Below are positions 6,856-33,057 of a stretch of 33,418 nt of DNA, in pieces (the first letter of the stretch is position 1; each line of letters begins with the position of its first letter). The translations under genes and the position numbers were made by a program. The stretch lies in NCBI GenBank assembly GCA_937891035.1, contig CALAED010000641.1, positions 1-33,418 of the forward strand, given 5' to 3'. The DNA is from an uncultured Thermomonosporaceae bacterium (lineage in GTDB: Bacteria > Actinomycetota > Actinomycetes > Streptosporangiales > Streptosporangiaceae). The notes below the pieces were generated by a model. That model was given only the letters and a program-made list of their open reading frames with translations. It did no database searches and was not told where the DNA came from.

Positions 6856-6864
6856 TATTTGTCC

Positions 6865-6872: not shown

Positions 6873-6943
6873 CTCCGGTTTTCTGGCTTTTTCTGGCTTT
6901 TCCGGCGGACGGAAGGGTGCTCCGCCGAACCAGTGACAGGTTC

Positions 6944-6989: not shown

Positions 6990-7078
6990 AAAGCCTCTGG
7001 CGCGAAGGGGATTATTGCCATCCAGCGGCCCGGTGGCGGAGATTTGTCGAGCCTGCAATTCCGCCGAAAGGGACTCTT

Positions 7079-8077: not shown

Positions 8078-8116
8078 CGCCGGGGATGCCGGGAAGATCG
8101 CCCCGGGGGACGCCGG

Positions 8117-9404: not shown

Positions 9405-9542
9405 TGAAGATCCCTAATGCTGCACCGATACCATATTTATGACTGTTGGTAAAAATTGCTGTTACCCCCGCCTCCTTGGACCGCCGCGGGCGGCGCGTTG
9501 GCGACTTTGCCGCCCAGAAGTCACCTCTCGGTATCGCCTCGG

Positions 9543-12958: not shown

Positions 12959-15832
<2,874 letters not shown>

Positions 15833-17406: not shown

Positions 17407-17445
17407 CTGGCGACGGTACATCGCGCCCGCGGAAACGAGAGCCCC

Positions 17446-18369
17446 TCACCGGTTTTGCACCCCCAAAGCCGGGTTTTGGGGCCTGTTCGGCCGGCAGGCG
17501 ACCGCAACCACATCCCGCAGGACGCCGTTGAGCCGCCGGCCAGCCGGCCACACCGCCCGCAGCAGGCGGCCGAGCTCGACATCGGCCACCTCGACGGCGA
17601 CCAGCCTGCCGTCGGCCACCTCGTGCGCGACGGCGAGCGAGCTGACCACGGCCGGGCCGACGCCGGCCTCGACCGACGACTTGATGGCCGTCGTCGACGA
17701 CAGCTCCGCCAGCGGAACCGCCAGCGGGCCGTACGGCGCCAGCACCGCTTCGAGGGTCTCCCGCGTCCCGGATCCGCGTTCGCGGGTCACCAGCGGGGCC
17801 GCGGCCAGTTCCGCGGCGCGCACCGGCCGGCGGCGCCGGGCCCAGGGGTGGCCCGGCGCGACGACGAGCCGGAGCCGGTCGCGCGCGACGACCTTCGACT
17901 GCAGCCCCTCGGGATGTCCCGGTCCTTCGACGAACCCGATGTCGGCGCCGTCCGCGACCACGAACCGCACCACGTCGCCCGAGTTGGCGACGCGCAGGGC
18001 CACGGACATGCGCGCCAGCCGGCCGCGCAACTCCACCAGCCAGCCGGGCATCAGGTACTCGGCGATGGTCATGCTGGCGGCCACCCGCAGCCGGTCCTCG
18101 TGCTGAGCCCGCAGCGCGGCCACGCCGGCCTCGAGGCGTCCGGCGGCGTGTACCACCTCCCTGGCCCAGTCGGCGACCATCGCCCCTTCCGGCGTCAGCC
18201 GCGAGCCGGACGCGGACCGCTCGATGAGCGCGAGGCCGAGCAGCCGTTCGAGGTTCCGGATCCGCGAACCCGCCGCGGGCTGGGTGATGCCGTGCCGGCG
18301 CGCCGCGCGGCCGAGGCTGCCGTGCCGGGCCACGGAAAGGAGCAATTCCAGCGCCCGGATGTCCGGCAT
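17446..18369 (-). CDS. LysR-family transcriptional regulator
   Basis: The product is 307 aa from ATG 18369. The N-terminal helix-turn-helix is typical (ALELLLSVARHGSLGRAARRHGITQPAAGSRIRNLERLLGLALIERS, residues 5-51). The effector-binding domain follows from about 85 (DRLRVAASMTIAEYLMPGWL). A GTG at 18489 would add 40 residues containing a Gly/Arg repeat encoded by a 12-bp tandem repeat; the family normally starts close to the helix-turn-helix, so I prefer 18369. First gene of a probable operon with the FeS/NrfD and molybdopterin subunits. Likely a sulfite or sulfonate-responsive regulator, from context only. Confidence 0.85.
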   Translation of the reverse strand: MPDIRALELLLSVARHGSLGRAARRHGITQPAAGSRIRNLERLLGLALIERSASGSRLTPEGAMVADWAREVVHAAGRLEAGVAALRAQHEDRLRVAASMTIAEYLMPGWLVELRGRLARMSVALRVANSGDVVRFVVADGADIGFVEGPGHPEGLQSKVVARDRLRLVVAPGHPWARRRRPVRAAELAAAPLVTRERGSGTRETLEAVLAPYGPLAVPLAELSSTTAIKSSVEAGVGPAVVSSLAVAHEVADGRLVAVEVADVELGRLLRAVWPAGRRLNGVLRDVVAVACRPNRPQNPALGVQNR

Positions 18370-18400
18370 CCGGGCCGACAGCCGATCCGGCTCCGCGCCG

Positions 18401-18448
18401 CCACCGCCTCGGCCACCGCCTCGGCCACCGCCTCGGCCACCGCCTCGG
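18401..18448. repeat. 12-bp tandem repeat, 4 perfect copies
   Basis: CCACCGCCTCGG is repeated four times without change. It lies just upstream of the preferred LysR start. If the longer GTG start (18489) is used, it encodes GGGR-type repeats at the N-terminus. Copy number could vary by slippage. Confidence 0.9.
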
Positions 18449-18508
18449 CGCGGCGACGTCCACGGGCTACCCGTCTCGTCCAAGACCACGGCCGCTCCCG
18501 CGTGCGTG

Positions 18509-18650: not shown

Positions 18651-18956
18651 ATGGTTGACACCGAACCGCCCGCATTCCTCGCCCACCACGAGGGAGACCT
18701 GGTCGCGGTCGCGGTGCGGGACCTGGAACCGGGCACGGTCGAGGGGGGCCACCTGCGCGGGCCCGCATCGGTGACCGTTGAGCTGCTCGATCCGGTTCCG
18801 CTTGGTCACAAGCTGGCGCTGAGCGACATCGCGGCCGGGCAGGACGTCATCGAGTACGGCCAGGTGGTCGCGATCGCGACCAAGGACATCAGGAAGGGCG
18901 AGTACGTCCACGTCCACAACGTGAGGAGCGCACGGTGGCGCAACAGCGTGGCCTGA
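18651..18956 (+). CDS. suyA: UxaA-family small subunit (SAF domain), probable sulfolactate sulfo-lyase SuyA
   Basis: The product is 101 aa from ATG 18651 (GGAG upstream). The whole protein is one SAF domain of the UxaA/GarD type (FLAHHEGDLVAVAVRDLEPG, VELLDPVPLGHKLALSDIAAGQDVIEYGQVVAIATKDIRKGEYVHVHNV). In altronate and galactarate dehydratases this domain is usually fused to the large domain; in (R)-sulfolactate sulfo-lyase it is a separate small protein, SuyA. The next gene overlaps by 22 nt and encodes the matching large subunit. The enzyme would split 3-sulfolactate into pyruvate and sulfite. Split altronate dehydratases also exist, so the substrate rests on the neighbours. Confidence 0.75.
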   Translation: MVDTEPPAFLAHHEGDLVAVAVRDLEPGTVEGGHLRGPASVTVELLDPVPLGHKLALSDIAAGQDVIEYGQVVAIATKDIRKGEYVHVHNVRSARWRNSVA

Positions 18957-20098
18957 CCGGATACCGCCGGGAGAACGGCGACGTCGGCATCCGCAACCAC
19001 ACGGTCATCCTGCCGGTCGACGACCTTTCGAACGCCGCCGCCGAGGCGGTGGCGAAGGTGGTGCCCGGCACGCTGGCGTTGCCACACGCCTACGGGCGGC
19101 TGCAATTCGGCCCCGACCTCGACCTGACCTTCCGGACGCTGATCGGCACCGGCCGCAACCCGAACGTCGCGTCCGTGGTGGTGATCGGGATCGAGCCCAA
19201 CTGGACCGAACGTGTCGTGGAAGGCGTCGCCAAGACCGGCAAGAAGGTACGCGGGTTCGCCATCGAGCGGCACGGCGACCTCCGCACCGTCGAGGCGGCC
19301 GCCAGAGTCGCGGCGCGCTTCCTCGCCGACGACTCCGAGCAGCACCGAGAGCCCGTGCGGCGCGGCGAGATCATGCTTTCCATCAAGTGCGGGGAGTCCG
19401 ACACCACCAGCGGTCTGGGTTCGTGCCCGACCACCGCGGAGGCGGTGGACCGCTGGGTCGACGCCGGCGGCACCGTGTTGTTCGGCGAGACCAGCGAACT
19501 GACCGGTGGCGAGGACCTCATCGCCGCGCGGTGCGTCAACGACGCGGTCCGCGCCCGGTTCCAGGAGATCTACGACGACTACATCGAGATGATCGAGCGG
19601 ACCGGCGCCAACCTGCTGGGGTCACAGCCGACCCAGGGCAACATCCGGGGCGGCCTGTCCACCATCGAGGAGAAGGCGATGGGCAACATCGCCAAGACCG
19701 GCGGCAGGCCGGTCGTCGGGGCGCTGGCGGCCGCCGAACCGCCGGGCGCGCAACCCGGGCTGTACTTCATGGACACATCGTCGGCCGCGGCCGAGTGCAT
19801 CACGCTGATGGCCGCCGCGGGCGCGACGCTCCACCTATTCCCGACCGGACAGGGAAACGTCATCGGCAACCCGATCGAACCGGTCGTCAAGCTGACCGCG
19901 AACCCGCAGACCGTCGAGACCATGAGCGAGCACGTCGACGTGGACTGCTCCGGCCTGCTCCGCCGCGAGTACGACCTGACCGCCGCCGGTGACCGGCTGA
20001 TGGAGATCTGCGATCGCACCATCAACGGCCGGCTGACGTGCGCGGAGGTGCTGGGTCACCGCGAGTTCGCGCTCACCCGTCTGTACCAGAGCGCCTGA
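18935..20098 (+). CDS. suyB: UxaA-family large subunit, probable sulfolactate sulfo-lyase SuyB
   Basis: The product is 387 aa from the GTG at 18935, close to the 42-kDa size known for SuyB. Family features are GYRRENGDVGIRNHTVILPVDDLSN (about 7-31), IKCGESDTTSGLGSCPTTAEAVDRWVDAGGTVLFGETSELTGGE (Cys-containing metal region), GNIRGGLSTIEEKAMGNIAKTG and FPTGQGNVIGNPIEPVVKLTANP. It forms the catalytic part of the lyase with SuyA. The reaction yields sulfite in the cytosol, which fits the divergent cytoplasm-facing molybdoenzyme. Altronate or galactarate dehydratase activity is the main alternative. Confidence 0.78.
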   Translation: MAQQRGLTGYRRENGDVGIRNHTVILPVDDLSNAAAEAVAKVVPGTLALPHAYGRLQFGPDLDLTFRTLIGTGRNPNVASVVVIGIEPNWTERVVEGVAKTGKKVRGFAIERHGDLRTVEAAARVAARFLADDSEQHREPVRRGEIMLSIKCGESDTTSGLGSCPTTAEAVDRWVDAGGTVLFGETSELTGGEDLIAARCVNDAVRARFQEIYDDYIEMIERTGANLLGSQPTQGNIRGGLSTIEEKAMGNIAKTGGRPVVGALAAAEPPGAQPGLYFMDTSSAAAECITLMAAAGATLHLFPTGQGNVIGNPIEPVVKLTANPQTVETMSEHVDVDCSGLLRREYDLTAAGDRLMEICDRTINGRLTCAEVLGHREFALTRLYQSA

Positions 20099-20100
20099 GC

Positions 20101-21540
20101 ATGACCGCGGTGATGATGAGCGACGCCCCGACGAACCTGATCAACGGCGAGTGGCTGGATCCGCCGCGGACCCGGGACGTGACCAACCCGGCCACCGGCC
20201 AGCGGGTCGGCCGGATCGGCTTCGGTGGCGCCGAGCAGGCCAGGGCCGCCGCCGACGCGGCCGCCGCCGCGTTCGAGGGCTGGGCGGCCGCCCCCGCCCG
20301 GCGCCGCGCGGACATCTTGCTCCGCGCGTCCGATCTGATCGCCGAACGGGCCGACCGAATCGGCGAGTTGCTCGCCGCCGAGGCCGGCAAGCGCCGGCCG
20401 GAGGCCGTCGCCGAGGTGACCTTCGCCGCCGAGTACTTCCGCTGGTTCGCCGAGCAGGCCCGCCGGCCCAACGGGACGATCGTCCCGCACGAGTCGCCCG
20501 GCCGGCGGCATCTGACCATCAGGCGGCCGGCCGGCGTGGTGGCCGGCCTGACACCGTGGAACTTCCCGTGCTCCATCCAGGCTCGCAAGCTGGCTCCCGC
20601 GCTGGCGGCCGGTTGCACCGTGGTGGCCAGAGTGTCGGAGAAGGCGCCGCTCGCGGCCACGGAGATGATTCGTTGTCTCACCGAGGCCGGGCTGCCGGCC
20701 GGCGTCGTCAATTTGGTGCACGGCCCGGCCGCCGAGATCACCGACGCCTACCTGACCCACCCCGCCGTACGGGTGGTGTCGTTCACCGGCTCCACCGAGG
20801 TCGGCCGCTCGATCATGGCCGCCGCCGGAGCCCGGGTGGTGCGGCCACTGCTCGAGCTGGGCGGTGCGGCCCCCTTCATCGTGTTCGACGACGCGGACCT
20901 CGACGCGGCGGTCGAGGGAGCGTTGATCGCCAAGTTCCGCAACACGGGTCAATCCTGCATCGCCGCCAACCGGTTCTTCGTGCACGACGCCGTCTTCGCC
21001 GACTTCGCCGCCCGGTTCGCCGCCGCCGTCGACGCGATGACCGTCGGCGCCGGGCTGTCCGCTCCCGTACCCGACCTCACCTGCTGCATCGACGACGATC
21101 GCGTCGCCGCGGTCGACGGGATGGTCGCCGAGGCCATGGACGCGGGAGCGAAACGGATCACCCGCGGTTTCGACCTGCCCGGGCCCTGCTTCGCCGCGCC
21201 CACTTTGCTGGTCGACGTGCCCGAGCACGTCGCGCTCGCGCGGCGGGAGATCTTCGGTCCGGCGTCCGGCATCTTCCGGTTCGACGATGAGGACGACGTG
21301 CTGGCCCGCGCCAACGACACCGAGATGGGCCTGGCCGCCTACTTCTACACTCGGGACTCCGCCCGGACCTGGCGCCTGGCCGAGCGGCTCGACGTCGGCA
21401 TCCTCGGCGTCAACAACCCCTTGCCCGGCTCGGTGTTCGTCCCGATGGGCGGCACCAAGCAGTCCGGCCTCGGCCGGGAGGGCGCGGCGCTCGGACTGGA
21501 GGAGTTCGAGGAGACCTGTTCGATCGCCATCGGGCTGTGA
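20101..21540 (+). CDS. aldehyde dehydrogenase, probable sulfolactaldehyde dehydrogenase
   Basis: The product is 479 aa, the usual GabD-type length, with ATG 2 nt after the suyB stop. Catalytic residues are in place: Asn154 (TPWNFP), Glu252 (LELGG) and Cys286 (NTGQSCIAANR), plus FTGSTEVGRSI for NAD(P) binding. The normally conserved KPSE loop reads RVSE here. In the sulfo-Entner-Doudoroff pathway a GabD-like enzyme oxidises 3-sulfolactaldehyde to 3-sulfolactate, which would feed directly into the sulfolactate enzymes encoded on either side. Succinate-semialdehyde or glyceraldehyde are alternative substrates. Confidence 0.85.
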   Translation: MTAVMMSDAPTNLINGEWLDPPRTRDVTNPATGQRVGRIGFGGAEQARAAADAAAAAFEGWAAAPARRRADILLRASDLIAERADRIGELLAAEAGKRRPEAVAEVTFAAEYFRWFAEQARRPNGTIVPHESPGRRHLTIRRPAGVVAGLTPWNFPCSIQARKLAPALAAGCTVVARVSEKAPLAATEMIRCLTEAGLPAGVVNLVHGPAAEITDAYLTHPAVRVVSFTGSTEVGRSIMAAAGARVVRPLLELGGAAPFIVFDDADLDAAVEGALIAKFRNTGQSCIAANRFFVHDAVFADFAARFAAAVDAMTVGAGLSAPVPDLTCCIDDDRVAAVDGMVAEAMDAGAKRITRGFDLPGPCFAAPTLLVDVPEHVALARREIFGPASGIFRFDDEDDVLARANDTEMGLAAYFYTRDSARTWRLAERLDVGILGVNNPLPGSVFVPMGGTKQSGLGREGAALGLEEFEETCSIAIGL

Positions 21541-21546
21541 CATGCG

Positions 21547-22518
21547 ATGACCGAACGGATCGATGTGCTGGTGACCGAGGACATCTCCGGTGCGCCGCTG
21601 GACGACCTCGCCACGCGTCACCGCGTGGTGCTCCGGCCGGAGGCCTGGCGCGACCGCGGCGCATTGCGGGAACTGGTGTCTCGCGCCCGGGCGATCGTGG
21701 TGCGCAACCGCACCATGGTGGACGCCGAACTGCTCGCCGCGGCGCCGGACCTGCGGATCGTGGCGCGCGCCGGCGTCGGGCTCGACAACATCGATCTCGC
21801 GGCGGCCCGCGAACGCGGCGTGGTGGTGTCGGCGCCGCTCGGCGCGAACGCGGTCAGCGTCGCCGAGCACACGCTCGGGCTGGCGCTGGCGCTGGCCCGC
21901 CGGACCGTGGCACTGGACGCCGGATGCCGCTCCGGGGAGTGGGACCGCAGCCCCGGTACCGAGTTGCACGGGGGAACCTGGGGACTGCTTGGCGCCGGGG
22001 CGACCGGCCGGGCCTGCGGACGGCTGGCCGCCGCGCTTGGCATGCGGGTGCTCGCCTTCGACCCCTACCTCGAGCCGGACGATCCGGAGCTGACCGGCGC
22101 CGGAATCGAGCTGGTGCCGCTGGCGGACGCGGTCACGCGGTCCGATGTGATCTCCATCCACCTGCCGGCCACCGGCCGGACCCGGGGCCTGGTGGACGCG
22201 GCCCTGCTGGCCAGGATGCGCCCCACCGCGCTGCTGATCAATGTCGGCAGGGGTGAGGTGATCGACGAGAACGCGCTCGCCGACGCACTGGAGTCGGGCG
22301 CACCGGCCGGCGCGGCGCTCGACGTGCGCGCGCAGGAACCACCGCGTCCGAGCCGGCTGGACAAGCTGGACAACGTGCTGTTCACCCCGCACATCGCCGG
22401 GATCACCGTGCAGAGCCAGGAGCGCATCTTGCGTCTGCTGAGCGCGGACGTGGACGCGGTGCTGAGCGGTGGCCGGCCCGCCTCGGCCGTGGACACGCGG
22501 GGCGCGGGCCGCCGATGA
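21547..22518 (+). CDS. slcC: D-2-hydroxyacid dehydrogenase, SlcC-like ((S)-sulfolactate dehydrogenase candidate)
   Basis: The product is 323 aa of the D-isomer-specific 2-hydroxyacid dehydrogenase family. Substrate-binding ARAGVGLDNID, nucleotide-binding GLLGAGATGRACGRLAAALGM, catalytic Arg in NVGRGEVIDENAL and His in TPHIAGIT are all visible. Length and family match SlcC, which oxidises (S)-sulfolactate to sulfopyruvate with NAD+. The neighbouring LDH2-type gene (ATGA overlap) would reduce sulfopyruvate to (R)-sulfolactate, the isomer used by SuyAB. 3-phosphoglycerate or another 2-hydroxyacid remains possible. Confidence 0.75.
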   Translation: MTERIDVLVTEDISGAPLDDLATRHRVVLRPEAWRDRGALRELVSRARAIVVRNRTMVDAELLAAAPDLRIVARAGVGLDNIDLAAARERGVVVSAPLGANAVSVAEHTLGLALALARRTVALDAGCRSGEWDRSPGTELHGGTWGLLGAGATGRACGRLAAALGMRVLAFDPYLEPDDPELTGAGIELVPLADAVTRSDVISIHLPATGRTRGLVDAALLARMRPTALLINVGRGEVIDENALADALESGAPAGAALDVRAQEPPRPSRLDKLDNVLFTPHIAGITVQSQERILRLLSADVDAVLSGGRPASAVDTRGAGRR

Positions 22519-23531
22519 GCCTCACCCTCGCGGAGGCGCGACGCCTGGCCACCGATCTGTTGACCGCCGCGGGAATGCCGCTCGACACCGCGAAGCGCAC
22601 GGCGTGGTGCGTTTCAGTGGCCGAGGCCTGGGGGGTCGCTTCGCACGGCTTGCTGCGGTTGCCCTACTACCTGCACCGCATCCAGGCCGGCGGCTATCCG
22701 CCGGACGCCGAGCTGCGTACCGTGACCGACACCGGCCCGCTGGTGGCTCTGGACGGGGGCGGCGGCCTCGGCCACTGGCAGGCGTGGCATGCCGCCGAGT
22801 TGGCGACCGGGCGCTGCGCCCGATATGGCATCGCCGCGGTCGCGGTGGCCGACTCCGGGCACTGTGGCGCGCTGGGGCTGTACACCGTGCCGGGCATCGA
22901 GGCCGGCCAGATCACGCTGGCCTTTTCGAACGGTCCGGCGGTGATGCCGGCATGGGGCGGCGCGCGCCCGCTGCTGTCCACCTCCCCGCTGGCGGCCGGC
23001 ATACCGACCCGGCCCCGGCCGGTCATCGTGGACATGGCCACCAGCGCCGTGGCGCGCGGAAAGATCGCCGCGCACGCACGCGATGGCACGCCGCTGCCGC
23101 CGGGCTGGGCGCTGGACGCGGACGGCCGGCCGACCACCGATGCGCGTGCCGCGCTCCACGGGCTGCTCGCCCCGCTGGGCGGCGCCAAGGGTTTCGCCCT
23201 CGCCCTACTGGTCGAGGCCCTGGCCGGCGGGCTGGCCGGGCCGAACCTGTCCGCCGCCGTTCCGGACATGTTCGCCGACACCGACGCCGGCCACCCCCAA
23301 CGCGTCGGGCATCTGCTGATCGCCATCGACGTGGCGAGATTCGAGGCCGCCGGCGACCGCCTCGACCGGCTCGCCTCGTCCGTCGAGGTGGGGGGCGGGC
23401 GGTTGCCGGGAGCGCGCCGGCGGCTGCCGTCCGAGCTCCACCCCGATCAGCCGCTGGACACCGCCGACTCCACGCTCGCCGAGTTGCGCGGCTGGGCCGA
23501 CCGCCTGGGGGTCGCCCGAAACGTCCGCTGA
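22515..23531 (+). CDS. comC: LDH2/MDH2-family oxidoreductase, ComC-like ((R)-sulfolactate dehydrogenase candidate)
   Basis: The product is 338 aa of the malate/L-lactate dehydrogenase type 2 family, a non-Rossmann NAD(P) fold. Signatures are SHGLLRLPYYLHRIQAGGY (about 44-62), ADSGHCGALGLY, DMATSAVARGKI and GGAKGFALALLVEALAGGL. The family includes ComC, which interconverts sulfopyruvate and (R)-sulfolactate. The start overlaps the SlcC-like stop by ATGA. Together the pair can epimerise sulfolactate, as described for Chromohalobacter. It is the last gene of the plus-strand operon. Confidence 0.75.
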   Translation: MSLTLAEARRLATDLLTAAGMPLDTAKRTAWCVSVAEAWGVASHGLLRLPYYLHRIQAGGYPPDAELRTVTDTGPLVALDGGGGLGHWQAWHAAELATGRCARYGIAAVAVADSGHCGALGLYTVPGIEAGQITLAFSNGPAVMPAWGGARPLLSTSPLAAGIPTRPRPVIVDMATSAVARGKIAAHARDGTPLPPGWALDADGRPTTDARAALHGLLAPLGGAKGFALALLVEALAGGLAGPNLSAAVPDMFADTDAGHPQRVGHLLIAIDVARFEAAGDRLDRLASSVEVGGGRLPGARRRLPSELHPDQPLDTADSTLAELRGWADRLGVARNVR

Positions 23532-23540
23532 CACGTCATC

Positions 23541-23588
23541 GCGTCACTCGCGCGTCACCCGCGCGTCACCCGCGTACCCGCGTCACCA
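23541..23588. repeat. short GCGTCAC direct repeats in convergent spacer
   Basis: Several near-identical GCGCGTCACCC-type units stand in tandem between the comC-like and dgoD-like stop codons and run just into the end of the latter gene. There is no clear hairpin-plus-T terminator. Probably a slippage product. Confidence 0.55.
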
Positions 23589-24752
23589 TTCGGTGTAGCG
23601 GCCGTCCGGGGTGCGCCAGACAGGATCGGGGAGGGTCCAGGAGCCGGCGCCGGCGCGGACGGAGCCGGCGGCGATCTCTATTCCCAGACCGGGGGCGGTG
23701 GGGCGGGGAAGGTGACCGCCGATGGGGCTCAGCGGGGTCGGATCCGCGAGGTAGTCAGCCATCTCGCCGGGAGGCAGACCCGCGTAACCCTGGTTGTAGT
23801 GCAGGCCGAGGCTTTGTTCCTGGATGACCACGTTGCCGGCGCAGCAGGCCACTTGGAGCGAGGCCGCCAGCGAGATCGGGCCGTTGGGGCAGTGGGGAGC
23901 CACCGCCACGTCATAGGCCTCGGCCATCCGGCAGATCTTCTCCAGTTCGAACAGGCCGGTCAGGGAGACGTCCGGCTGGATGATGTCCACCGCTCGTTGT
24001 TCCAGGAGTCGGGCGTACGCGGCCCGCGTGAAGACGCGTTCGCCCGTGGCCAGCGGGGTGCGGCCCGCGTGGGCGGTGAGTTCGGGGAGCAGGTCTTCTT
24101 GCCCCGGCGGCAGCGGTTCTTCGATCCACATGAGGCGGAACTGTTCCAGCTCGCGAAGCAGCGCCTTGGCCATCGCGCGGTGGACCCGGCCATGGAAGTC
24201 CACGGCTATGTCGACGGCGTCGCCGTGGGCGTCCCGGATCGCGGCGACGCGGGCGACGACCGCGTCCACCTGTTCGGGGCTGTCGACGTAGTCGAGCTCT
24301 TCCGTGGCGTTCATCTTGACGGCCGTGAACCCTTGAGCGAGCCGTGCCTTGGTGTGGGCCACGACGTTGCCGGGACGGTCCCCGCCTATCCAGGCGTAGA
24401 GGCGCACGCGTTCCCGTACCGCGCCGCCGAGGAATTCATAGACGGGAAGGCCGTGGCGGTGGCCTTTGACGTCCCACATGGCCTGCTCGATCGCCGCGGT
24501 CGCCGTGGCGAGCACCGGTCCGTCGCGGAAGAAGCCGCCGCGGCTCATGCGCTGCCAAAGGTCCTCGATACGTGCCGGGTTTTCCCCGATGATGTTGCGG
24601 GCCAGGTCGTCGACCGCGCCCGCGACGGCCGCGGCCCGTTTGGGGACGATGGCCTCGCCCCAGCCGGTCAGGCCGTCGCGGGTCGTCAGCTCGACGAAAA
24701 TCCAGCGGGGGGCGACGCGGTGCGTCCGGATCGCCGCGATCTGGTCGCTCAT
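23583..24752 (-). CDS. dgoD: enolase-superfamily sugar-acid dehydratase (D-galactonate dehydratase-like)
   Basis: The product is 389 aa, closely following E. coli DgoD in pattern. Metal and catalytic residues sit in VDFHGR (Asp185, His187), WIEEP (Glu211), ATGERV (Glu238) and APHCPNGP (His287); VKMNATEEL, IQPDVSLTG and QEQSLGLHYNQG complete the match. The family removes water across C2-C3 of a sugar acid to give a 2-keto-3-deoxy acid. D-galactonate and D-gluconate (hence 6-sulfogluconate) have the same C2 and C3 configuration, so a sulfogluconate dehydratase role is chemically possible. Characterised sulfo-ED pathways, as I recall, use an IlvD/EDD-type enzyme instead. Last gene of the operon, 10 nt after the ATPase gene. 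Confidence 0.88.
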   Translation of the reverse strand: MSDQIAAIRTHRVAPRWIFVELTTRDGLTGWGEAIVPKRAAAVAGAVDDLARNIIGENPARIEDLWQRMSRGGFFRDGPVLATATAAIEQAMWDVKGHRHGLPVYEFLGGAVRERVRLYAWIGGDRPGNVVAHTKARLAQGFTAVKMNATEELDYVDSPEQVDAVVARVAAIRDAHGDAVDIAVDFHGRVHRAMAKALLRELEQFRLMWIEEPLPPGQEDLLPELTAHAGRTPLATGERVFTRAAYARLLEQRAVDIIQPDVSLTGLFELEKICRMAEAYDVAVAPHCPNGPISLAASLQVACCAGNVVIQEQSLGLHYNQGYAGLPPGEMADYLADPTPLSPIGGHLPRPTAPGLGIEIAAGSVRAGAGSWTLPDPVWRTPDGRYTEW

Positions 24753-24762
24753 GCGTGGCCGG

Positions 24763-25830
24763 TCATCCGATGGTCTGGCCGGTGTCGGGATCGAACAGAT
24801 GGACCCGGGCCGGATCGACGCTGAGCGTCACCTTCTCGGCATGATGGAAACGGTGCTCGCGCGGGAGCTTGGCGGTCACCGTCTCATCGCCGACCGCCAA
24901 GATCACGTGCTGTTCCGAGCCGAGCGGCTCGACGACCTCAACGACCCCTTCGACGACACAGCCGGCGTCTCGCCCCGAATGCGGCCGCAGGTGCTCGGGA
25001 CGGATTCCGCACACCGCCTTCCCCGGGACGTTTTTGAGACGATCCGCCGGAAGCCTCAGCCGCACCCCGGCTCCGCGCAGCTGCGGACCGTCCACCTCGC
25101 AGGTCAAAAATCCCATCGCGGGAGTGCCGATGAAGCTCGCCACGAACCGGTTGACCGGGCGCTCGTAGAGCTCATCCGGTGTGCCGAGCTGTTGAATGAC
25201 GCCGTCGTTCATGACGGCGATGCGGTCGCCCATCGTCATCGCCTCGACCTGGTCGTGGGTCACGTAGATCGCGGTCGCGGTGACGGCACGGTGCACCTTC
25301 AGGATCTCGGCGCGCATCCGGACGCGCAGGTGGGCGTCCAGGTTGGACAGCGGCTCGTCCAGCAGGAACACCGCCGGGTCGCGGACGATAGCGCGGCCGA
25401 GAGCGACGCGCTGGCGCTGACCTCCCGACAGCTGCCTCGGGCGGCGGTCGAGAAGCTCCTCGATGCCGAGCAGCCCAGCGGCGTCCCGCACCTTCTCATC
25501 GATCAACGATCGCGGGAGTTTGCGGCGCCGCAGCCCGAAGGCCATGTTCCCGTACACCGACATATGCGGATAGAGGCCGTAGTTCTGGAACACCATGGCG
25601 ATGTCGCGGTCGCTAACGTCGATGTCGTCCACCCGCTCGTCCCCGAAGAACACCTCGCCCTCGGTCGGCGACTCAAGGCCGGCGATGATGCGCAGCAGCG
25701 TCGTCTTCCCCGACCCGGACGGGCCGACCAGGACGAGGAACTCGTGGTCACCGACGTCCAGGTCGCAGTCGCGCAGGACGACGGTGTCGCCAAAGCGCTT
25801 GCCCACGCTCTTCAGGCTGATACCGGTCAT
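24763..25830 (-). CDS. sugar ABC transporter ATP-binding protein (UgpC/MsmK type)
   Basis: The product is 355 aa from the ATG at 25830, which shares one base with the dehydrogenase stop (TGATG). It has Walker A GPSGSGKTT (residues about 37-45), Q-loop FQNYGLYPH, signature LSGGQRQR, Walker B VFLLDEP and switch YVTHDQVEAMTMG. The C-terminal TOBE-like regulatory domain (about 235-355) contains GIRPEHLR, as in carbohydrate importers. It powers the two permeases and the lipoprotein encoded upstream. Confidence 0.93.
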   Translation of the reverse strand: MTGISLKSVGKRFGDTVVLRDCDLDVGDHEFLVLVGPSGSGKTTLLRIIAGLESPTEGEVFFGDERVDDIDVSDRDIAMVFQNYGLYPHMSVYGNMAFGLRRRKLPRSLIDEKVRDAAGLLGIEELLDRRPRQLSGGQRQRVALGRAIVRDPAVFLLDEPLSNLDAHLRVRMRAEILKVHRAVTATAIYVTHDQVEAMTMGDRIAVMNDGVIQQLGTPDELYERPVNRFVASFIGTPAMGFLTCEVDGPQLRGAGVRLRLPADRLKNVPGKAVCGIRPEHLRPHSGRDAGCVVEGVVEVVEPLGSEQHVILAVGDETVTAKLPREHRFHHAEKVTLSVDPARVHLFDPDTGQTIG

Positions 25831-26630
25831 CACTTCTCTCCCAGCGGGTCGGGGTATCTGCTGAGCCGGCGGCCGGCGTCCACGTGCAGTGTGGCGCCGG
25901 TGCAAAAGGCGGCCGCGTCGGAGCAGAGGAAGGCGACGGCCGCCGCGACCTCTTCAGGACGGCCGAACCGCCGCAGCAGGGTCGGGGGTGTCACGCTGGT
26001 GTCGGCGTGGCGTTCGCGCAGCGTGTCGCCCATGGACGGCGAGTCGATGACGCCCGGCGCGACCGCGTTCACGCGAACGCCGAGCGGGGACAGTTCGACC
26101 GCCATGGCGCGGGTGAGCGCGCTGAGCCCGCCCTTGCTCGCCACATAGGACGTGTGCGCCGACACGGGAAGGTCCTCCTGGATGCTCGTGATGTTCACGA
26201 TGGCGCCGAAGCGGCGGGCGACCATGTCGCGCGCGGCGTCCCTGCCGAGCACCATCGCGGCCGTCAGGTTGATGTCGAGTACGTTCCGCCAGTCGTCCAG
26301 ATCGGTGTCCAGAAACGACAGGCGCCGGCCGAGGAAGGCGGCGTTGTTCACCAGCATGTCGACCCGGCCGTGCCGCGCGACGACCTCCGGTATCACCGAC
26401 GCGCACCGCGCGGCGTCGGCGAGGTCCGCGACCAAGTAGGTCGCCGCCGCCTCCGCGGGTCCGGCCGCCGCCGGCCCGCTTCGGCTCACCGTCAGCCCGG
26501 CCGCCACGTCCGCCACGGCCTCGTTCCGGTCGACGAGGACGACGGCGGCCCCGTCGGCCGCCAGCCGGGTCGCGACGGCGCGGCCGATCCCCCGCGCGGC
26601 GCCCGTGACCACCGCCACCCGCCCTCTCAT
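25830..26630 (-). CDS. short-chain dehydrogenase/reductase, candidate sulfoquinovose (sugar) 1-dehydrogenase
   Basis: This classical SDR of 266 aa has NAD(P)-binding TGAARGIG (residues 10-17), NNAA (94-97), Ser148, and catalytic Tyr161/Lys165 (YVASK). The C-terminal TGATLHVDAGRR fits the family. In the sulfo-ED and non-phosphorylative sugar pathways, an SDR oxidises the sugar at C1 to a lactone, and a lactonase gene is in the same operon. The start overlaps the permease stop by ATGA. Substrate not readable from sequence. Confidence 0.85.
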   Translation of the reverse strand: MRGRVAVVTGAARGIGRAVATRLAADGAAVVLVDRNEAVADVAAGLTVSRSGPAAAGPAEAAATYLVADLADAARCASVIPEVVARHGRVDMLVNNAAFLGRRLSFLDTDLDDWRNVLDINLTAAMVLGRDAARDMVARRFGAIVNITSIQEDLPVSAHTSYVASKGGLSALTRAMAVELSPLGVRVNAVAPGVIDSPSMGDTLRERHADTSVTPPTLLRRFGRPEEVAAAVAFLCSDAAAFCTGATLHVDAGRRLSRYPDPLGEK

Positions 26631-27541
26631 GTTCCCGAGAGCGCACCGGCGGTCATACCGCGGACCATGGAGCGCTGAACGGCGAAGAAGGCGATGACCA
26701 GCGGCAGGCTCGTGATGAGCGCGGCGGCCATCATGCCGCCCCAGTCGGTCTTAAAGGTGCCGGTGAAGCTCTGCATCAGCCCGGCCGGGAGGGTCTGCCG
26801 CGCGTTTGTGCTGACCAGGGTCAACGGGTAGAGCAGATTGTTCCAGGTGTTCATGAAGATGAACACCGCGGTGGTGACCAGACCGGGTATCGACGTCGGC
26901 ACGACGACCCGGAACAGCACGCCAAGGCGCCCGTACCCGTCCACCCGCGCGGCCTCTTCGATCTCCCGGGGCATTCCGTCGAAGAAGCCCTTCATCATCC
27001 AGGCGCCGAACGGTATCGCGAACGACGTGTAGCCGACGATGAGCCCGAAGTAGGTGTTCAGCAGATGCGCCTTGAGGAGCAGGAGATAGAGCGGGCCGAT
27101 CAGCACGACGAGGGGCAGCATCTGCGTCGCCAGCACGGCGATGCCGGTAACCCCGTTGAGCCGGTAGCCGCCCCTGGAGAAGCTGTACCCGGCGAGGGTG
27201 GAGATCAGCACCGCGACCAGCGCCGCGATGATCGCCGTGAAGAAGCTGTTGAACAGGTACGTCCCGAACGGGACGGTACCGGTGAACAGTCCTTGGAAGT
27301 TCGCGCCGGTGAACGAGCGCGGCCACAACGTCGGGGTGAGGTTCGTCGCCTCGAGCGGAGACTTCACCGACGTGGCGATCATCCAGTACAGCGGCGCCAG
27401 CGTCCACGCGGCGAACAGCGCGATGATCACGACGGCGATCGATCGCGCGGCCCAGGGTCGCCGGCGGCGGCGTGGCGCGCGTGCCGTCCCGGCGGTCACA
27501 TGGGACTCCTTGGCGGCCGCGGCGGTTCTCCGCGCGGTCAT
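26627..27541 (-). CDS. carbohydrate ABC transporter permease (MalG type)
   Basis: The product is 304 aa from the ATG at 27541, overlapping the first permease's stop (ATGA). Six membrane helices are visible (for example SIAVVIIALFAAWTLAPLYW, AIIAALVAVLISTLAGYSF, MLPLVVLIGPLYLLLL, LVTTAVFIFMNTWNNLLYPL). The EAA loop contacting the ATPase reads EIEEAARVDGYGRLGVLFRVVVPTS. It pairs with the MalF-type permease. Confidence 0.93.
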   Translation of the reverse strand: MTARRTAAAAKESHVTAGTARAPRRRRRPWAARSIAVVIIALFAAWTLAPLYWMIATSVKSPLEATNLTPTLWPRSFTGANFQGLFTGTVPFGTYLFNSFFTAIIAALVAVLISTLAGYSFSRGGYRLNGVTGIAVLATQMLPLVVLIGPLYLLLLKAHLLNTYFGLIVGYTSFAIPFGAWMMKGFFDGMPREIEEAARVDGYGRLGVLFRVVVPTSIPGLVTTAVFIFMNTWNNLLYPLTLVSTNARQTLPAGLMQSFTGTFKTDWGGMMAAALITSLPLVIAFFAVQRSMVRGMTAGALSGT

Positions 27542-28476
27542 GCGGTCCTCCCTCGCAGGACTCGGATGAACAGGACCGCGATGCCCAGCAGCAGTACCAG
27601 CCAGACGAAGCCCACGGCCGATGCGTAGCCGAGGTCGTATTTGGTGAACGCGAGCCGGTACACGTAAACGACCAGGGTCGTGGTGCTGTAGGCGGGGCCG
27701 CCCTCGGTCATCGCCCAGATCAGCGGGAAGTTGTTGAAGTTCTGGATGGTCATCAGCAGCGCGCCGACCAGCGCGGCGCCGCGCAGGAAGGGCAGCTTGA
27801 TCCGGGTGATCATCGTCCAGGTGCCGGCCCGGTCGATCCGCGCGGCCTCGACGACCTCCCCCGGCACCGCGGCGAGCGCCGCCGTGAAGACCAGCAGGAA
27901 GAACGGCGCCTGCGACCAGACGTTGGCGATGATCACCGATGCCAGCGCCCAGTCCCCGTTGGTCAGCCACGGTACTGAGGAGCCGGTGACGTGCGTCCGC
28001 AGCAGGACGGCGTCCACGACGCCGCCTCGTTCTTCGAACATGAACCGGAACAGGAACGCCACCACGATGACCGGGATCGCCCACGGGGTGAGCAGCGCGC
28101 CGCGCAGCAACTGCCACGGCCCTCGCAACCGCTCGGTGACCAGGGCGAGCGCCAGCCCGATGAGCATGCCGCCCACCACGGAGGCCACGGTGAAGACGGC
28201 CGTGCTGCGCAGCGACGTCCAGAACACCGGGTCCGCCGCGAGGCGCTCGTAGTTGCGCGCGCCGATGAACTCATGGCTCGGCATGAGCAGCGGATAGTCG
28301 TAGAACGAGACGATGACCGTCCGGACGATCGGGTACGCGATGACGACGGCGAGCACGATCAGGGCGGGCAGGGTCATCCAGTCGAGCCACGGCTCGCCGC
28401 GGCGCCGCCTGCGCCGTGGCGGCCGCGACGGCGGTGCCGGCCGGGCCGCGCCGGTCCGGGTGGCGGCAGCCGTCAT
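27538..28476 (-). CDS. carbohydrate ABC transporter permease (MalF type)
   Basis: The product is 312 aa, with the ATG at 28476 overlapping the lipoprotein gene stop (ATGA). An Arg/Pro-rich cytosolic start is followed by helices such as LPALIVLAVVIAYPIVRTVIV, FTVASVVGGMLIGLALAL and PWAIPVIVVAFLFRFMF. The EAA loop reads GEVVEAARIDRAGTWTMITRIKLPFL. The first of two permeases in the importer. Confidence 0.92.
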   Translation of the reverse strand: MTAAATRTGAARPAPPSRPPRRRRRRGEPWLDWMTLPALIVLAVVIAYPIVRTVIVSFYDYPLLMPSHEFIGARNYERLAADPVFWTSLRSTAVFTVASVVGGMLIGLALALVTERLRGPWQLLRGALLTPWAIPVIVVAFLFRFMFEERGGVVDAVLLRTHVTGSSVPWLTNGDWALASVIIANVWSQAPFFLLVFTAALAAVPGEVVEAARIDRAGTWTMITRIKLPFLRGAALVGALLMTIQNFNNFPLIWAMTEGGPAYSTTTLVVYVYRLAFTKYDLGYASAVGFVWLVLLLGIAVLFIRVLRGRTA

Positions 28477-29780
28477 CCGAACTCCGACTTCAGGGTCGAC
28501 TGCAGGTTGGCGGCGACCGAGTCGATGGGCTGCGAGCCGGTCATCGTGGCCTGGATCCCGGACATGATCGGCGAGTACGCCTTGGCGTAGTTCGAGCCCC
28601 ATTCCGGCCTGGCCACCTTGGGAATGACCGCCTCGCGGAACGACTTCATGATCGGGTTATCGAGCCGCTTGGCCCCGTCACCGGTGAGGTCGCGCACCGG
28701 CGGCAGCGAGCCCTCGGCGTCGAGGATGTAATCGACGCCCTCCGGCGATGTGGTGAGGAACTTCATGAACTCCCAGGCGGCCTTGTGCTTCTTGCTGTCC
28801 TTGAACAGCACGAGTTGGTGGTCGGTGGGGGCGCTGAAGTGCTGCCCGGTGGCCGTGGGCAGCGGCGCCACTCCCCAGGTGTCGTAGAACTGCTCGTCCG
28901 TCGCCTTGTTGGCGTCCTGGACGACGCCTTTCACGTACGGGCCGTCGACGGTGAACGCCACCTGGTCGGATGCCGCGGGCTGGCGGAAGAACCCCGCCTT
29001 CTGGTTGATCGGGGTGTACCCGTTCTTGGCGATCTCCCGCATGAAGTTGAGGTAGGCCTTCATGCCGGGCGAGTCGGCGGTCGGGTTCGACCCCTGGAAC
29101 GGCTGCGCGCCGAAGCTCTTCATGATCGGCCAGTTGGTGTCCAGGCCGTAGGGGCGGTTGGTGGTGTCCAGGCCGAACGCGATGGTCTTCGGATTCTTCT
29201 GGTGGATCGTCCGCGCCGCGGCGAGCAGTTCGGTCCAGGTGGCGGGCGGCTTGGCCGGATCGAGCCCGGCGTCCTTGAGGACCTTCTTGTTGTACCAAAG
29301 GCCGATCGGCGCGACCGTCCACGGGGCGCCGATCAGCTCGCCGCCGACCTGGCCGAGCTTGAGCACCTCCGGGATGATCGACTGCTTGTACGCGGGGCCG
29401 GCGAGCTCGTCGAGCGGCTGCAGCGCCTTGGTCTCGGCGACGGTGAAGGTGTAGTTGCCGGCGAGCTCGGCCACGTCCGGCGCGTTGCCGGACTGGGTCT
29501 GCAAGATGAGCTGGTGCTCGATGTCGGTGAACGAGATGGGCTCGCTCTTGATCTTGATATTGGGGTGCGTCTGCTCGAACTTGGCGATCAGCGCCCGGAT
29601 CCCCGGCTGGGTGGCGGGCTCCGCGTCGGCCCAGTTGGCGAACCTGATCGTGGTCGTGCCGCCGGATTCGCCGTCCGACCCTCCGCCGCAGGCCGCGGCG
29701 AGCAGGTTGAGCGCGAGCGCGCCGGCCAGGGCGCGCCCAAGGAGGGGTAGCGCCCGGCCTCGTGGACTGGGGGGTGTCAT
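28473..29780 (-). CDS. extracellular solute-binding lipoprotein of sugar ABC importer
   Basis: The product is 435 aa, ATG at 29780 with AAGGAG upstream (an earlier ATG at 29810 lies inside a tandem duplication). A signal peptide ends in the lipobox LLAAACGGG, so the protein is lipid-anchored outside the membrane. The mature part follows the family 1 sugar-binding pattern (TTTIRFANWADAEPATQPGIRALIAKFEQTHPNIKI, then GNAPDVAEL and PWTVAPIGLWYNKKVLKDAG). It captures the substrate for the two permeases. In a sulfoquinovose pathway it would be the counterpart of SmoF, but I could not identify sulfonate-contact residues. Confidence 0.92.
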   Translation of the reverse strand: MTPPSPRGRALPLLGRALAGALALNLLAAACGGGSDGESGGTTTIRFANWADAEPATQPGIRALIAKFEQTHPNIKIKSEPISFTDIEHQLILQTQSGNAPDVAELAGNYTFTVAETKALQPLDELAGPAYKQSIIPEVLKLGQVGGELIGAPWTVAPIGLWYNKKVLKDAGLDPAKPPATWTELLAAARTIHQKNPKTIAFGLDTTNRPYGLDTNWPIMKSFGAQPFQGSNPTADSPGMKAYLNFMREIAKNGYTPINQKAGFFRQPAASDQVAFTVDGPYVKGVVQDANKATDEQFYDTWGVAPLPTATGQHFSAPTDHQLVLFKDSKKHKAAWEFMKFLTTSPEGVDYILDAEGSLPPVRDLTGDGAKRLDNPIMKSFREAVIPKVARPEWGSNYAKAYSPIMSGIQATMTGSQPIDSVAANLQSTLKSEFG

Positions 29781-29794
29781 CGGTTGCTCCTTCT

Positions 29795-29827
29795 CATCTC
29801 GGCGGTTCATCTCGGCGGTTCATCTCG
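29795..29827. repeat. 13-bp tandem duplication between lactonase and lipoprotein genes
   Basis: CATCTCGGCGGTT occurs twice in tandem (29795-29807, 29808-29820) plus a 7-bp partial copy. It covers the lactonase stop codon and creates an extra in-frame ATG upstream of the lipoprotein gene. Likely slippage. Confidence 0.85.
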
Positions 29828-30734
29828 CGCCCCCGCTTGTCCCCGCGTACCGCGCGGCGGGCAGCCCCGCCACGCCGATGTTGGGGATCCGTAGCACGGC
29901 GCCCGCCTCCGGGTACCGGGCGAGTTCGGCCTCGCCGAGCCCGGCGCAGAGGGTCGTCACGAACAGGTCCTCCAGGCGCTCGCCCCCGAAGGCGCAGCTG
30001 GTGACGTACGGCAGCGGCAGGTCGACGACCTCGTCGAGGCGCCCGGACGGGGCGAAGCGCCGGACGGTGCCGCCACGGGCCATCGCCACCCAGAGGCCGC
30101 CCTCGGCGTCCATGGCGAGCCCGTCGGGACGGCCGGGCGTATCGTGCAGGTCCACGAAGGTCCGGCGACCGCGAACCCCACCGGTCTCGATGTCGAAGTC
30201 GAACACGTCGACCCGTTCGGTGACGGTGTCGGCGTAGTACATCCGAGTGCCGTCCGGGCTCCACGCGAGCCCGTTCGACAGCGTGACGTCGTCCAGGACG
30301 GTGATGAGCCGCCCGTCCGGGGCCAGCCGGTACAGCGCCGCCGCTCGCGGCCGGTGCTCCAGCGTGAGCGTCCCGCCCCACAGCCGGCCGGCCGGATCGC
30401 ACCGGGCGTCGTTCATCCGGTCGCCGCGGCCGGCTGTCGCGAGATGCGTCAGCTCGCCGGACGCCTCGTCGAGCAGCGCGAACCCCATCCCCGCCGCCAC
30501 GACGAGCCCGGACGACCGGCAGGTCGCGACGGCTCCGACCGGCACCGGCAACCGCGCGACCAGCCGGTCGTCATCCTCCCGGGGCCGGAACCGGTGGACC
30601 TCGCCGCGCAGGATGTCGACCCACAGCAAGGACCCGTCCCGTTCGTCCCAAACGGGCGACTCGCCGACCAGGGCGCGGTTGCCGGCGACCACCTCGGCCT
30701 TGCTCACGGGTCGCTCACCCTTTGCGTTCCCCAC
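29820..30734 (-). CDS. SMP-30/gluconolactonase family lactonase
   Basis: The product is up to 304 aa (GTG at 30734; GTG at 30707 with AAGGGTGAG upstream is an alternative, 295 aa). Six-bladed propeller signatures of the SMP-30 family are present: GESPVWDERDGSLLWVDI (metal Glu), GDRMNDARCDPAGRLWGGTL (Asn/Asp), LSNGLAWSPDGTRMYYADT (metal Asn), and RPDGLAMDAEGGLWVAM (Asp). These divalent-metal enzymes open sugar lactones. In the sulfo-ED route it would hydrolyse 6-sulfogluconolactone produced by the SDR. The aldolase gene ends one base upstream. Confidence 0.9.
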   Translation of the reverse strand: MGNAKGERPVSKAEVVAGNRALVGESPVWDERDGSLLWVDILRGEVHRFRPREDDDRLVARLPVPVGAVATCRSSGLVVAAGMGFALLDEASGELTHLATAGRGDRMNDARCDPAGRLWGGTLTLEHRPRAAALYRLAPDGRLITVLDDVTLSNGLAWSPDGTRMYYADTVTERVDVFDFDIETGGVRGRRTFVDLHDTPGRPDGLAMDAEGGLWVAMARGGTVRRFAPSGRLDEVVDLPLPYVTSCAFGGERLEDLFVTTLCAGLGEAELARYPEAGAVLRIPNIGVAGLPAARYAGTSGGAR

Positions 30735-30735
30735 C

Positions 30736-31713
30736 TCAACGGCGCTCCTTCACGACGCCCAGTCGCGCCAGATGATCGGCGAGCGCGGCGTGATCTTGGC
30801 CGGACAGCGGCGCGGCCCGGCCGGCCAGGCGCCGGTCGCAGATGCCCGCGATCTCCAGCGCGGATTTCCAGCCGGCGGGCGGAGTTCCCCGGCGGCAGGC
30901 CAGCACGACATCGGTCAGGCGGCGCTGTGCCCTCAGCGCACGGTCCAGGTCGCCGGACGCGACGGAGCGGCAGATCTCGGCGCCCAGCTCGGGGACGAGG
31001 TTGGCGCTCGCGGCGATCGTGCCGTCGGCGCCGGACAGCAGGCCGGCCATCAGGAGGGTGTCGGTGCCGGTCAGCACCGTGAAGTCGGCCGCGGGGTTGG
31101 TCGGGGAGACCGGGGAGCCGGTGGAGCCCGGGGAGCCGGTGGAGCCCGGGGAGCCGGTGCCGCCTGAGGTCGCCTCCAGCACCGCCAGGAGGTATTCCAT
31201 GTCGCGGCCGCTGTCCTTGATGCCGGCGATGGCGGGGTGGGCCGCGAGGTCGCCGACCACGGGCGGCGGGATGGTGACCTTGGTGAACTGCGGGATGTTG
31301 TAGAGGACGATCGGCAGCGGCGTCGCGGCGGCCAGCTCCTCGTAGAACCGGAGCACCTCGTCACCCGGCATGGGAAAGTACGACGGCGGACTGACCAGCG
31401 CGGCGGTCACGCCGGTGGCGGCGAGCCCCGCCAGCTCGGTCAGCACGCTCTCGGTGTCGGTCGCGGGCAGGCCGGCCACCACCGGGACCTCGGCGGGCAC
31501 CAGACCCCGGACGGCCGCGGCGACCTCGGCGCGCCGCCGTGGCCCAAGGCGCGCCCCTTCTCCGGTGGAGCCGGTCGGGCAGACCATGCTCACGCCGCCG
31601 GACAGCACCCGGCGGACGAGCCGCTCCAGACCCGCGTGGTCGAGTTCTCCCCTCTCGTCCAGCGGTGTGGCGAGCGCGACGGCGGCGCCGCCGGGAAGGC
31701 GCACGGTGTCCAT
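30736..31713 (-). CDS. DapA/KDG-aldolase family lyase, candidate 2-keto-3-deoxy-sulfogluconate aldolase
   Basis: The product is 325 aa, longer than the usual 290-300. DHDPS-family landmarks are the substrate carboxylate loop GSTGEG (48-53), Tyr138 in LYNIPQ and Schiff-base Lys166 in GIKDSGRD. An inserted low-complexity stretch of about 25 residues (183-207, GSPGSTGSP-type) encoded by an 18-bp tandem repeat follows shortly after the lysine helix. The family cleaves or dehydrates 2-keto sugar acids; here cleavage to pyruvate plus a three-carbon aldehyde would suit the downstream aldehyde dehydrogenase. First gene of the import/degradation operon. Ketodeoxyglucarate dehydratase or dihydrodipicolinate synthase activity is less consistent with the neighbours. 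Confidence 0.85.
   Translation of the reverse strand: MDTVRLPGGAAVALATPLDERGELDHAGLERLVRRVLSGGVSMVCPTGSTGEGARLGPRRRAEVAAAVRGLVPAEVPVVAGLPATDTESVLTELAGLAATGVTAALVSPPSYFPMPGDEVLRFYEELAAATPLPIVLYNIPQFTKVTIPPPVVGDLAAHPAIAGIKDSGRDMEYLLAVLEATSGGTGSPGSTGSPGSTGSPVSPTNPAADFTVLTGTDTLLMAGLLSGADGTIAASANLVPELGAEICRSVASGDLDRALRAQRRLTDVVLACRRGTPPAGWKSALEIAGICDRRLAGRAAPLSGQDHAALADHLARLGVVKERR
31112..31158. repeat. 18-bp tandem repeat (2.6 copies) inside aldolase gene
   Basis: GGGGAGCCGGTGGAGCCC is present at 31112-31129 and 31130-31147, with a partial copy to 31158. On the coding strand it gives GSPGST-type repeats. The unit length is a multiple of three, so expansion would keep the frame. Confidence 0.9.
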
Positions 31714-32289: not shown

Positions 32290-33057
32290 TCAGGGTCCCG
32301 TGCCGGTCCTGTCGTCGTCTTCGGGGACGGCGTCCGCCATCGCCGGGTTGCGGGCGGTCTCGATCCTCAGGCGCCGGACGGCCGTACGGTGGGCGGCTCG
32401 CACGTGGCGGCGCGCGGCCGTCCTGGCCGCCTGGGAATCGCCGGCGAGCAAGGCCGCCATGATGCGCTCGTGGTCCAGACGCGACTTCTCGAAGCGCCCG
32501 GGGACCATGAGGGTCGTCTGCATGCCGCCGGCGAGGATCTTCTGGAGCACACCCAGCGTCTCGCGCAGGAACCTGTTGCCCGCGGCATCCACGATCGCCA
32601 GGTGGAAGGCGGCGTCCAGGCGTTGGAGCTCGGTGAACTCGCGGGGCTCGCGCTCGCCGGCGGCGTTCAGGGCGTCCAGCGCGTCGCGCACCCGGACGAG
32701 GCGGGCCCTGTCCTGCTCGGCGGCGGCCCAGCCCGCGGCGGGAACCTCAAGCACCTCGCGCATGGCGAACAACTCGTCCATCGTGATGGCCTGGCGGTCG
32801 AGGGCGAGGCGCAGCTCACGGCTGGTCTCCGGGTGGGCGACGAAAACACCGCGGCCATGCACCACCCGCACCAGGCCACGGGCCTTCAGGGAGCCGATCG
32901 CCTCCCGGAGGGTGGGCCGGCTCACCCCGAGCTGTTCGGCGAACTCCCGCTCAGCCGGGAGCCGGTCGCCGGGCGCGAGCCGACCGCTCTCGATCACCTC
33001 GAGGATCTGGGCCTCTACCTGTTGCGCAACGCTGCCCCGCCCGAGCCGCCGCCACAT
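32290..33057 (-). CDS. GntR-family regulator, FadR subfamily
   Basis: The product is 255 aa from the ATG at 33057 with GGAGAGG upstream. The N-terminal winged helix is clear (QQVEAQILEVIESGRLAPGDRLPAEREFAEQLGVSRPTLREAIGSLKARGLVRVVHGRGVFV, residues about 11-72). The helical FCD effector domain follows (about 90-235), with DAAFHLAIVDAAGN and FEKSRLDHERIMAALLAGDSQAARTAARRHV. This subfamily commonly controls sugar-acid and lactate catabolism and binds TGGTnnnnACCA-like sites. A matching site lies 54 nt upstream of its own start and others precede the catabolic operons, so it is the probable local repressor. Confidence 0.9.
   Translation of the reverse strand: MWRRLGRGSVAQQVEAQILEVIESGRLAPGDRLPAEREFAEQLGVSRPTLREAIGSLKARGLVRVVHGRGVFVAHPETSRELRLALDRQAITMDELFAMREVLEVPAAGWAAAEQDRARLVRVRDALDALNAAGEREPREFTELQRLDAAFHLAIVDAAGNRFLRETLGVLQKILAGGMQTTLMVPGRFEKSRLDHERIMAALLAGDSQAARTAARRHVRAAHRTAVRRLRIETARNPAMADAVPEDDDRTGTGP

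Follow-up and report, generated by a model that had tools for sequence, protein, structure and literature searches.

Which compound is degraded by an operon that combines an enolase-superfamily dehydratase with a DapA-family aldolase and lies beside genes for sulfolactate breakdown? The question is posed by a stretch of 33,418 nucleotides from an uncultured Thermomonosporaceae bacterium (assembly GCA_937891035.1, 84% complete; contig CALAED010000641.1, positions 1–33,418 of the forward strand), hereafter the window. A preliminary description of positions 23583–31713 had held that the operon, if it serves sulfoquinovose (SQ), would constitute a new version of the sulfoglycolytic Entner–Doudoroff (sulfo-ED) pathway. 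We propose instead, with a probability of about 0.6, that the genes make up a complete locus for sulfosugar catabolism, of the sulfofucolytic Entner–Doudoroff type, the sugar being most likely sulfofucose (6-deoxy-6-sulfo-D-galactose). The genes, operon structure, recurrent linkage, co-occurrence, clade signature and catalytic motifs described below are observed directly.

Linkage of the operon to sulfolactate genes

The genes from the dehydratase to the aldolase (23583–31713) all lie on the reverse strand, either overlapping or some 10 bp apart, and hence likely form one operon. They encode a DgoD-like enolase-superfamily protein (23583–24752; MR_MLE_N and MR_MLE_C domains), proposed to be a sulfogalactonate (or sulfogluconate) dehydratase; a UgpC/MalK-type ATP-binding cassette (ABC) transporter ATPase (24763–25830), whose start overlaps the stop of a short-chain dehydrogenase/reductase gene (SDR; 25830–26630; PF13561; conserved in linked clusters), the proposed sulfosugar 1-dehydrogenase; ABC permeases of the MalG (26627–27541) and MalF (27538–28476) types; a sugar solute-binding lipoprotein (28473–29810; PF01547); an SMP-30/gluconolactonase-family lactonase (29820–30734; PF08450, 275 bits); and a DapA-family class I aldolase (30736–31713; PF00701), proposed to act on 2-keto-3-deoxy-sulfogalactonate. 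The two enzymes at the ends thus lie where the preliminary description had placed them, as NCBIfam and Pfam matches confirm.

Convergent to this operon, on the forward strand, a sulfolactate module (18651–23531) ends 52 bp from the dehydratase gene. It comprises a SuyA-like small subunit with a SAF domain (18651–18956; PF08666; in relatives always upstream of SuyB), a SuyB-like sulfolactate sulfo-lyase large subunit (18935–20098; GD_AH domains; 60% identity to SuyB of Sinorhizobium mexicanum), an aldehyde dehydrogenase (ALDH; 20101–21540; PF00171), proposed to oxidise sulfolactaldehyde (SLA), an SlcC-like 2-hydroxyacid dehydrogenase (21547–22518; PF00389/PF02826) and a ComC-like dehydrogenase of the Ldh_2 family (22515–23531), whose top NCBIfam match is L-sulfolactate dehydrogenase (180 bits, under the cut-off of 500). 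Separate SuyA and SuyB with two predicted sulfolactate dehydrogenases would thus share one operon, as in the SuyAB-SlcC/ComC module. Due to this proximity a sulfonated substrate is well supported, as the preliminary description had presumed, be it derived from sulfoquinovose or from another sulfosugar. The bounds then drawn for the locus left out the module, which is the best evidence for the idea.

In the proposed pathway the ABC importer would take up the sugar, a specificity assigned from gene position alone. By analogy with relatives, the SDR would oxidise C1, the SMP-30 protein would open the lactone and the DgoD-like enzyme would dehydrate sulfogalactonate at C2/C3. The DapA-type aldolase, to judge again only by its position, would cleave the 2-keto-3-deoxy product in a retro-aldol reaction to pyruvate and (S)-sulfolactaldehyde, which the ALDH of the second operon would convert to sulfolactate. 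SlcC and ComC would, like their relatives, invert sulfolactate, SuyAB would split it into pyruvate and sulfite, and the sulfite may then be oxidised by a molybdoenzyme encoded nearby.

Since the two operons converge, they do not form one transcript, and one could suppose that an ordinary galactose/galactonate operon of the De Ley–Doudoroff type lies beside sulfolactate genes by chance. However, the linkage recurs across several genera. A complete or nearly complete sulfolactate set adjoins the same operon in Micromonospora yasonensis DSM 45980 (L045), in an Actinomycetes metagenome-assembled genome (MAG; L047) and on a plasmid of S. mexicanum ITTG R7 (L128), and it is on the same contig as the operon in an Actinophytocola MAG (L039/L152), in differing gene orders. 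Moreover, SuyB (57–87% identity) is present in 14 of the 16 distinct genomes with a member of the dehydratase clade defined below, two entries with identical matches (G092 and G560, locus L042), apparently one genome, being counted once. Among 201 genomes of the window's family, SuyB was found in all three clade-positive genomes versus 5 of the 198 clade-negative ones (Fisher test, P-value = 4e-5, uncorrected for relatedness).

Several clade dehydratases (L040–L044, L046, L050, L052 and L053) have no adjoining sulfonate genes. A non-sulfonate role for them is unlikely, since each of their genomes carries SuyB at 69–87% identity; in G092, suyAB adjoins a sugar-transporter-like gene, an SDR gene and an SMP-30 gene. 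This reasoning does not extend to L048 (Opitutae), whose genome has no SuyB, and L049 (Rhodospirillales), with a 36% relative only. Overall, the co-occurrence and linkage make a C6-sulfonated aldonate the likely substrate of the dehydratase.

A dehydratase clade apart from ordinary DgoD

The dehydratase exceeds the cut-off of the NCBIfam galactonate dehydratase model NF010624 (483 versus 311 bits), which also speaks for an ordinary galactonate operon. A FastTree tree of 114 rows, though, separates it from 92 ordinary DgoD-type sequences: it groups with the S. mexicanum homologue, to which it is 60% identical, in a clade that has support 1.0 and comprises 22 rows (19 distinct sequences). Eight changes are near-fixed in the clade relative to the 92 ordinary sequences: E37P, G38K, V68R, Y75F, H264L, A265T, A275R and L290N. 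Where ordinary DgoD has WGEP-EGR, QPD-SHAG and PHCPLGP, the window protein reads WGEAIVPKR, QPDVSLTG and PHCPNGP and so lacks the ordinary motifs. It retains D185, E211, E238, H187 and H287, residues that in this family serve as metal ligands and catalytic histidines. A second DgoD with ordinary motifs is encoded elsewhere in the window's genome.

The operon resembles the De Ley–Doudoroff pathway in its dehydrogenase, lactonase, DgoD-type dehydratase and 2-keto-3-deoxy-aldonate aldolase, but differs from it in its link to sulfolactate genes and in the dehydratase motifs. Taking co-occurrence, linkage and motif signature together, we reject an ordinary galactonate operon as highly improbable. 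The signature, moreover, can probably serve to tell these dehydratases from galactonate dehydratases that bear the same annotation.

The AlphaFold model of the dehydratase (mean pLDDT 88.7) has as its top structural match a Ralstonia pickettii protein (3RR1/3RRA). The capping domain helps set specificity in the enolase superfamily, and the lysine K38 follows strand 29–34 of that domain. The preliminary description had suggested looking for added positive charge near C6 of the substrate: the clade-wide lysine in the capping domain is a charge of the kind meant, and it may lie near C6.

The same description had set the dehydratase and aldolase apart from those of Pseudomonas putida SQ1. This is borne out, the enzymes there belonging to PF00920 and PF03328 (PMC12421959). 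It had also named a separate IlvD-type dehydratase in the same regulon as evidence to the contrary; no IlvD/EDD-type (PF00920) gene is present in the cluster or on the window's contig, whereas other contigs of this assembly hold four. In common with the SQ1 sulfo-ED system, the locus has the proposed reaction order, the broad SDR and lactonase families, and sulfolactaldehyde and sulfolactate as the end; it differs in lacking PF00920 and PF03328 enzymes from the cluster, in an SDR without Arg152/Arg154, and in that the same locus would degrade sulfolactate further.

Sulfofucose or sulfoquinovose

All substrates and reactions, and above all the configuration of the sugar at C4, are inferred here. 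Stewart et al. (2025) reported that Paracoccus wurundjeri degrades sulfofucose via the SDR SfcH, the lactonase SfcD, the PF13378/PF02746 dehydratase SfcF and the PF03328 aldolase SfcE, and proposed SlcC/ComC and SuyAB for the later steps (PMC12421959). The dehydratase family was named there as the step that separates the sulfofucose route from sulfo-ED for sulfoquinovose, and S. mexicanum was among the candidate sulfofucose degraders, all of them Proteobacteria. Use of sulfofucose was shown in one Paracoccus; its SLA dehydrogenase was not found and no sulfofucosidase is known (PMC12421959). Like P. wurundjeri Merri, the window encodes an SDR, an SMP-30-type lactonase, a PF13378/PF02746 dehydratase, an ABC importer, SlcC, ComC, SuyA and SuyB. 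The enzyme being of the published sulfogalactonate dehydratase type, the galacto substrate that had been taken for the alternative is, once sulfonated, the likelier of the two. That a sulfofucose candidate, S. mexicanum, has a clade dehydratase would likewise favor sulfofucose.

Glycosidase genes near related clusters bear on the same point. GH2 beta-galactosidase-type genes number four on the Actinophytocola contig and three in Micromonospora, with one near the S. mexicanum cluster, and the top match of their products in the PDB is the beta-D-galactosidase 5EUV/5LDR. The sites (L039:425-2974, L152:2-9965, L153:15253-17610, L154:403-8341 and L128:27692-29836) encode candidate sulfofucosidases, many with twin-arginine-like signal sequences. 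In another genome, G040 (L126:1244-4050 and 8594-11881), a gene of GH59, the galactocerebrosidase family, which lies in two overlapping frames, adjoins a clade dehydratase; upstream of the ABC genes there are a YihT-like aldolase and a weak match to fucose isomerase. A galacto-configured sugar is suggested by the GH2 genes near the L039, L045 and L128 clusters and by the GH59 gene next to the G040 dehydratase.

The same pathway could, however, act on sulfoquinovose, with the dehydratase working on 6-deoxy-6-sulfogluconate in a sulfo-ED pathway of non-orthologous dehydratase and aldolase, as first described. Plasmid pYA7-1a of Arthrobacter sp. YA7-1 (NZ_CP110115.1), a conjugative plasmid, encodes a GH188 protein that scores 527 bits against the sulfoquinovosidase ArSqgA, conserves in alignment the SQ-contacting residues (per PMC10755693), and lies beside the same SDR, DgoD-like, DapA-type and SMP-30 genes. 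Three clade genomes encode YihQ-like proteins, sulfoquinovose is by far the commoner sugar in nature, and the stereochemistry at C2/C3 is identical in both sugars. These enzymes of SQ metabolism beside or among clade members weigh against sulfofucose, as do the lack of any glycosidase on the window's contig, the genome holding only a distant GH2, and the fact that enzyme roles are read from sequence and the relation to SfcF through the S. mexicanum clade member, which stood in for SfcF in our comparisons. Against sulfoquinovose are the membership of that S. mexicanum dehydratase in the clade, the beta-galactosidase type of the GH2 and GH59 neighbors, and the window's genome, in which no match to GH188 or to a YihQ-like sulfoquinovosidase was found, a weak negative, given the incomplete assembly and a GH188 search that lacked a positive control. 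This genome encodes two GH31 proteins, an alpha-xylosidase and one without assignment, and both score well short of the YihQ model (PRK10426) cut-off.

The SDR also differs from the sulfoquinovose dehydrogenase PpSQDH, in which Arg152 and Arg154 contact the sulfonate site: with the same Ser-Tyr spacing, it has Leu and Val at these positions. The comparison sets the two enzymes apart and leaves the substrate undecided. A GGR-x-(L/I)SR motif close to the C-terminus, common to the SDR and its relatives and present also in that of S. mexicanum, might contact the sulfonate instead. Overall, we regard sulfoquinovose as an unlikely substrate.

The pYA7-1a cluster (L127:13707-27203) is a hybrid in its own right. 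With sulfoglycolytic Embden–Meyerhof–Parnas (sulfo-EMP) systems of Arthrobacter (e.g. AK01) it shares GH188, a YihV-like kinase, a YihT-like aldolase, an ALDH of the SLA dehydrogenase type and TauE; in contrast to them it adds the ED-type SDR-DgoD-DapA-SMP30 set, next to an ABC importer. The YihT- and YihV-like genes would fit sulfoquinovose, though no isomerase was seen in the cluster and there was no YihS match. The window has no EMP genes. Since the same core enzymes accompany GH188, GH2 or GH59 in different hosts, the enzymes might be promiscuous at C4 and serve both sugars, depending on the glycosidase or importer of the host. Both epimers yield the same (S)-sulfolactaldehyde on aldol cleavage (PMC12421959), but kinetic data that compare the two epimers were found for no clade member, and we consider such promiscuity quite improbable.

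Aldolase, later steps and implications

The enolase-type dehydratase is not new, being the SfcF type published in 2025, and of the claimed novelty of the pathway it is the aldolase that stands. The aldolase matches the Pfam dihydrodipicolinate synthase (DHDPS)/DapA family and stays below every curated NCBIfam cut-off (dapA, 145 versus 206 bits). The DapA-type proteins keep the Schiff-base lysine and the tyrosine of YN(I/F)P and share an invariant arginine in KDS(S/G)RD, which might, at a guess, bind the sulfonate. Arg138 after YNxP, which marks DHDPS, is lost, the window site reading YNIPQFT. A Gly-Ser-Pro-Thr repeat insertion of ∼25 residues (31090–31167) is absent from relatives. DapA-type aldolases also occur in L039, L045 and pYA7-1a, where the gene overlaps that of the dehydratase, and the L044 and L047 genomes encode unlinked relatives of at least 47% identity.

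The S. mexicanum plasmid locus combines its clade dehydratase with an HpcH-type aldolase, SMP-30, SuyAB, SlcC and ComC. Among the genomes searched, proteins at least 44% identical to that HpcH protein were found only in Aurantimonas, and actinobacterial relatives reach at most 40%. No SfcE-type PF03328 (HpcH/HpaI) aldolase is encoded in the window's cluster, and one HpcH relative (36%) is on another contig. The DapA-type enzyme thus appears to replace SfcE. Unlike P. wurundjeri Merri, the window has PF00701 instead of PF03328, a linked ALDH of the SLA dehydrogenase type and an actinobacterial host; these and the GH2/GH59 beta-galactosidase-type genes beside relatives are new. A 2026 review gives sulfo-ED for Proteobacteria only and lists Actinomycetota with sulfo-EMP, not sulfo-ED (PMC12890257).

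The ALDH carries the catalytic cysteine and both arginines proposed to bind sulfonate. Succinate-semialdehyde dehydrogenases share these residues; hence its assignment rests on operon context. It is a candidate for the SLA dehydrogenase, the step that has no assignment in P. wurundjeri.

Upstream of the operon, a GntR/FCD-family regulator (32290–33057, reverse strand) has relatives beside suyAB in most related genomes. A LysR regulator (17446–18489, reverse strand), is divergent from suyAB, and its relatives in several genomes lie close to suy genes. Next to it, also on the reverse strand, are genes for an Fe-S/NrfD fusion (15877–17421; PF13247, PF03916) and a molybdopterin oxidoreductase (12959–15832; PF00384, PF01568, PF04879), possibly subunits B and C and the catalytic subunit of a sulfite dehydrogenase of the SoeABC type. 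This possible role in sulfite oxidation is assigned from position alone; no homologue of the pair was found at the related suy loci examined. Positions 4789–12460 possibly hold a separate natural-product locus, with an asparagine-synthase-like protein related to macrolactam cyclases (4789–6480), an MsnO8-type luciferase-like protein (6917–8077) and two BTAD/SARP-type regulators (8622–9404 and 9800–12460).

Sulfosugars hold a large part of biological organosulfur. The locus would place a route from import to sulfite in Actinomycetota and offers a candidate for the missing SLA dehydrogenase, while its relatives supply glycosidase candidates in named strains, M. yasonensis DSM 45980 and Arthrobacter sp. 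YA7-1. A bolder reading, which we consider less likely than not, is that Actinomycetota mineralise sulfofucose by a distinct system of their own: a neofunctionalised DgoD clade would act together with a DapA-derived sulfo-aldolase and with secreted enzymes of GH2/GH59, which would then be the first known sulfofucosidases. If true, this would imply that beta-sulfofucosides are a common, overlooked environmental substrate.

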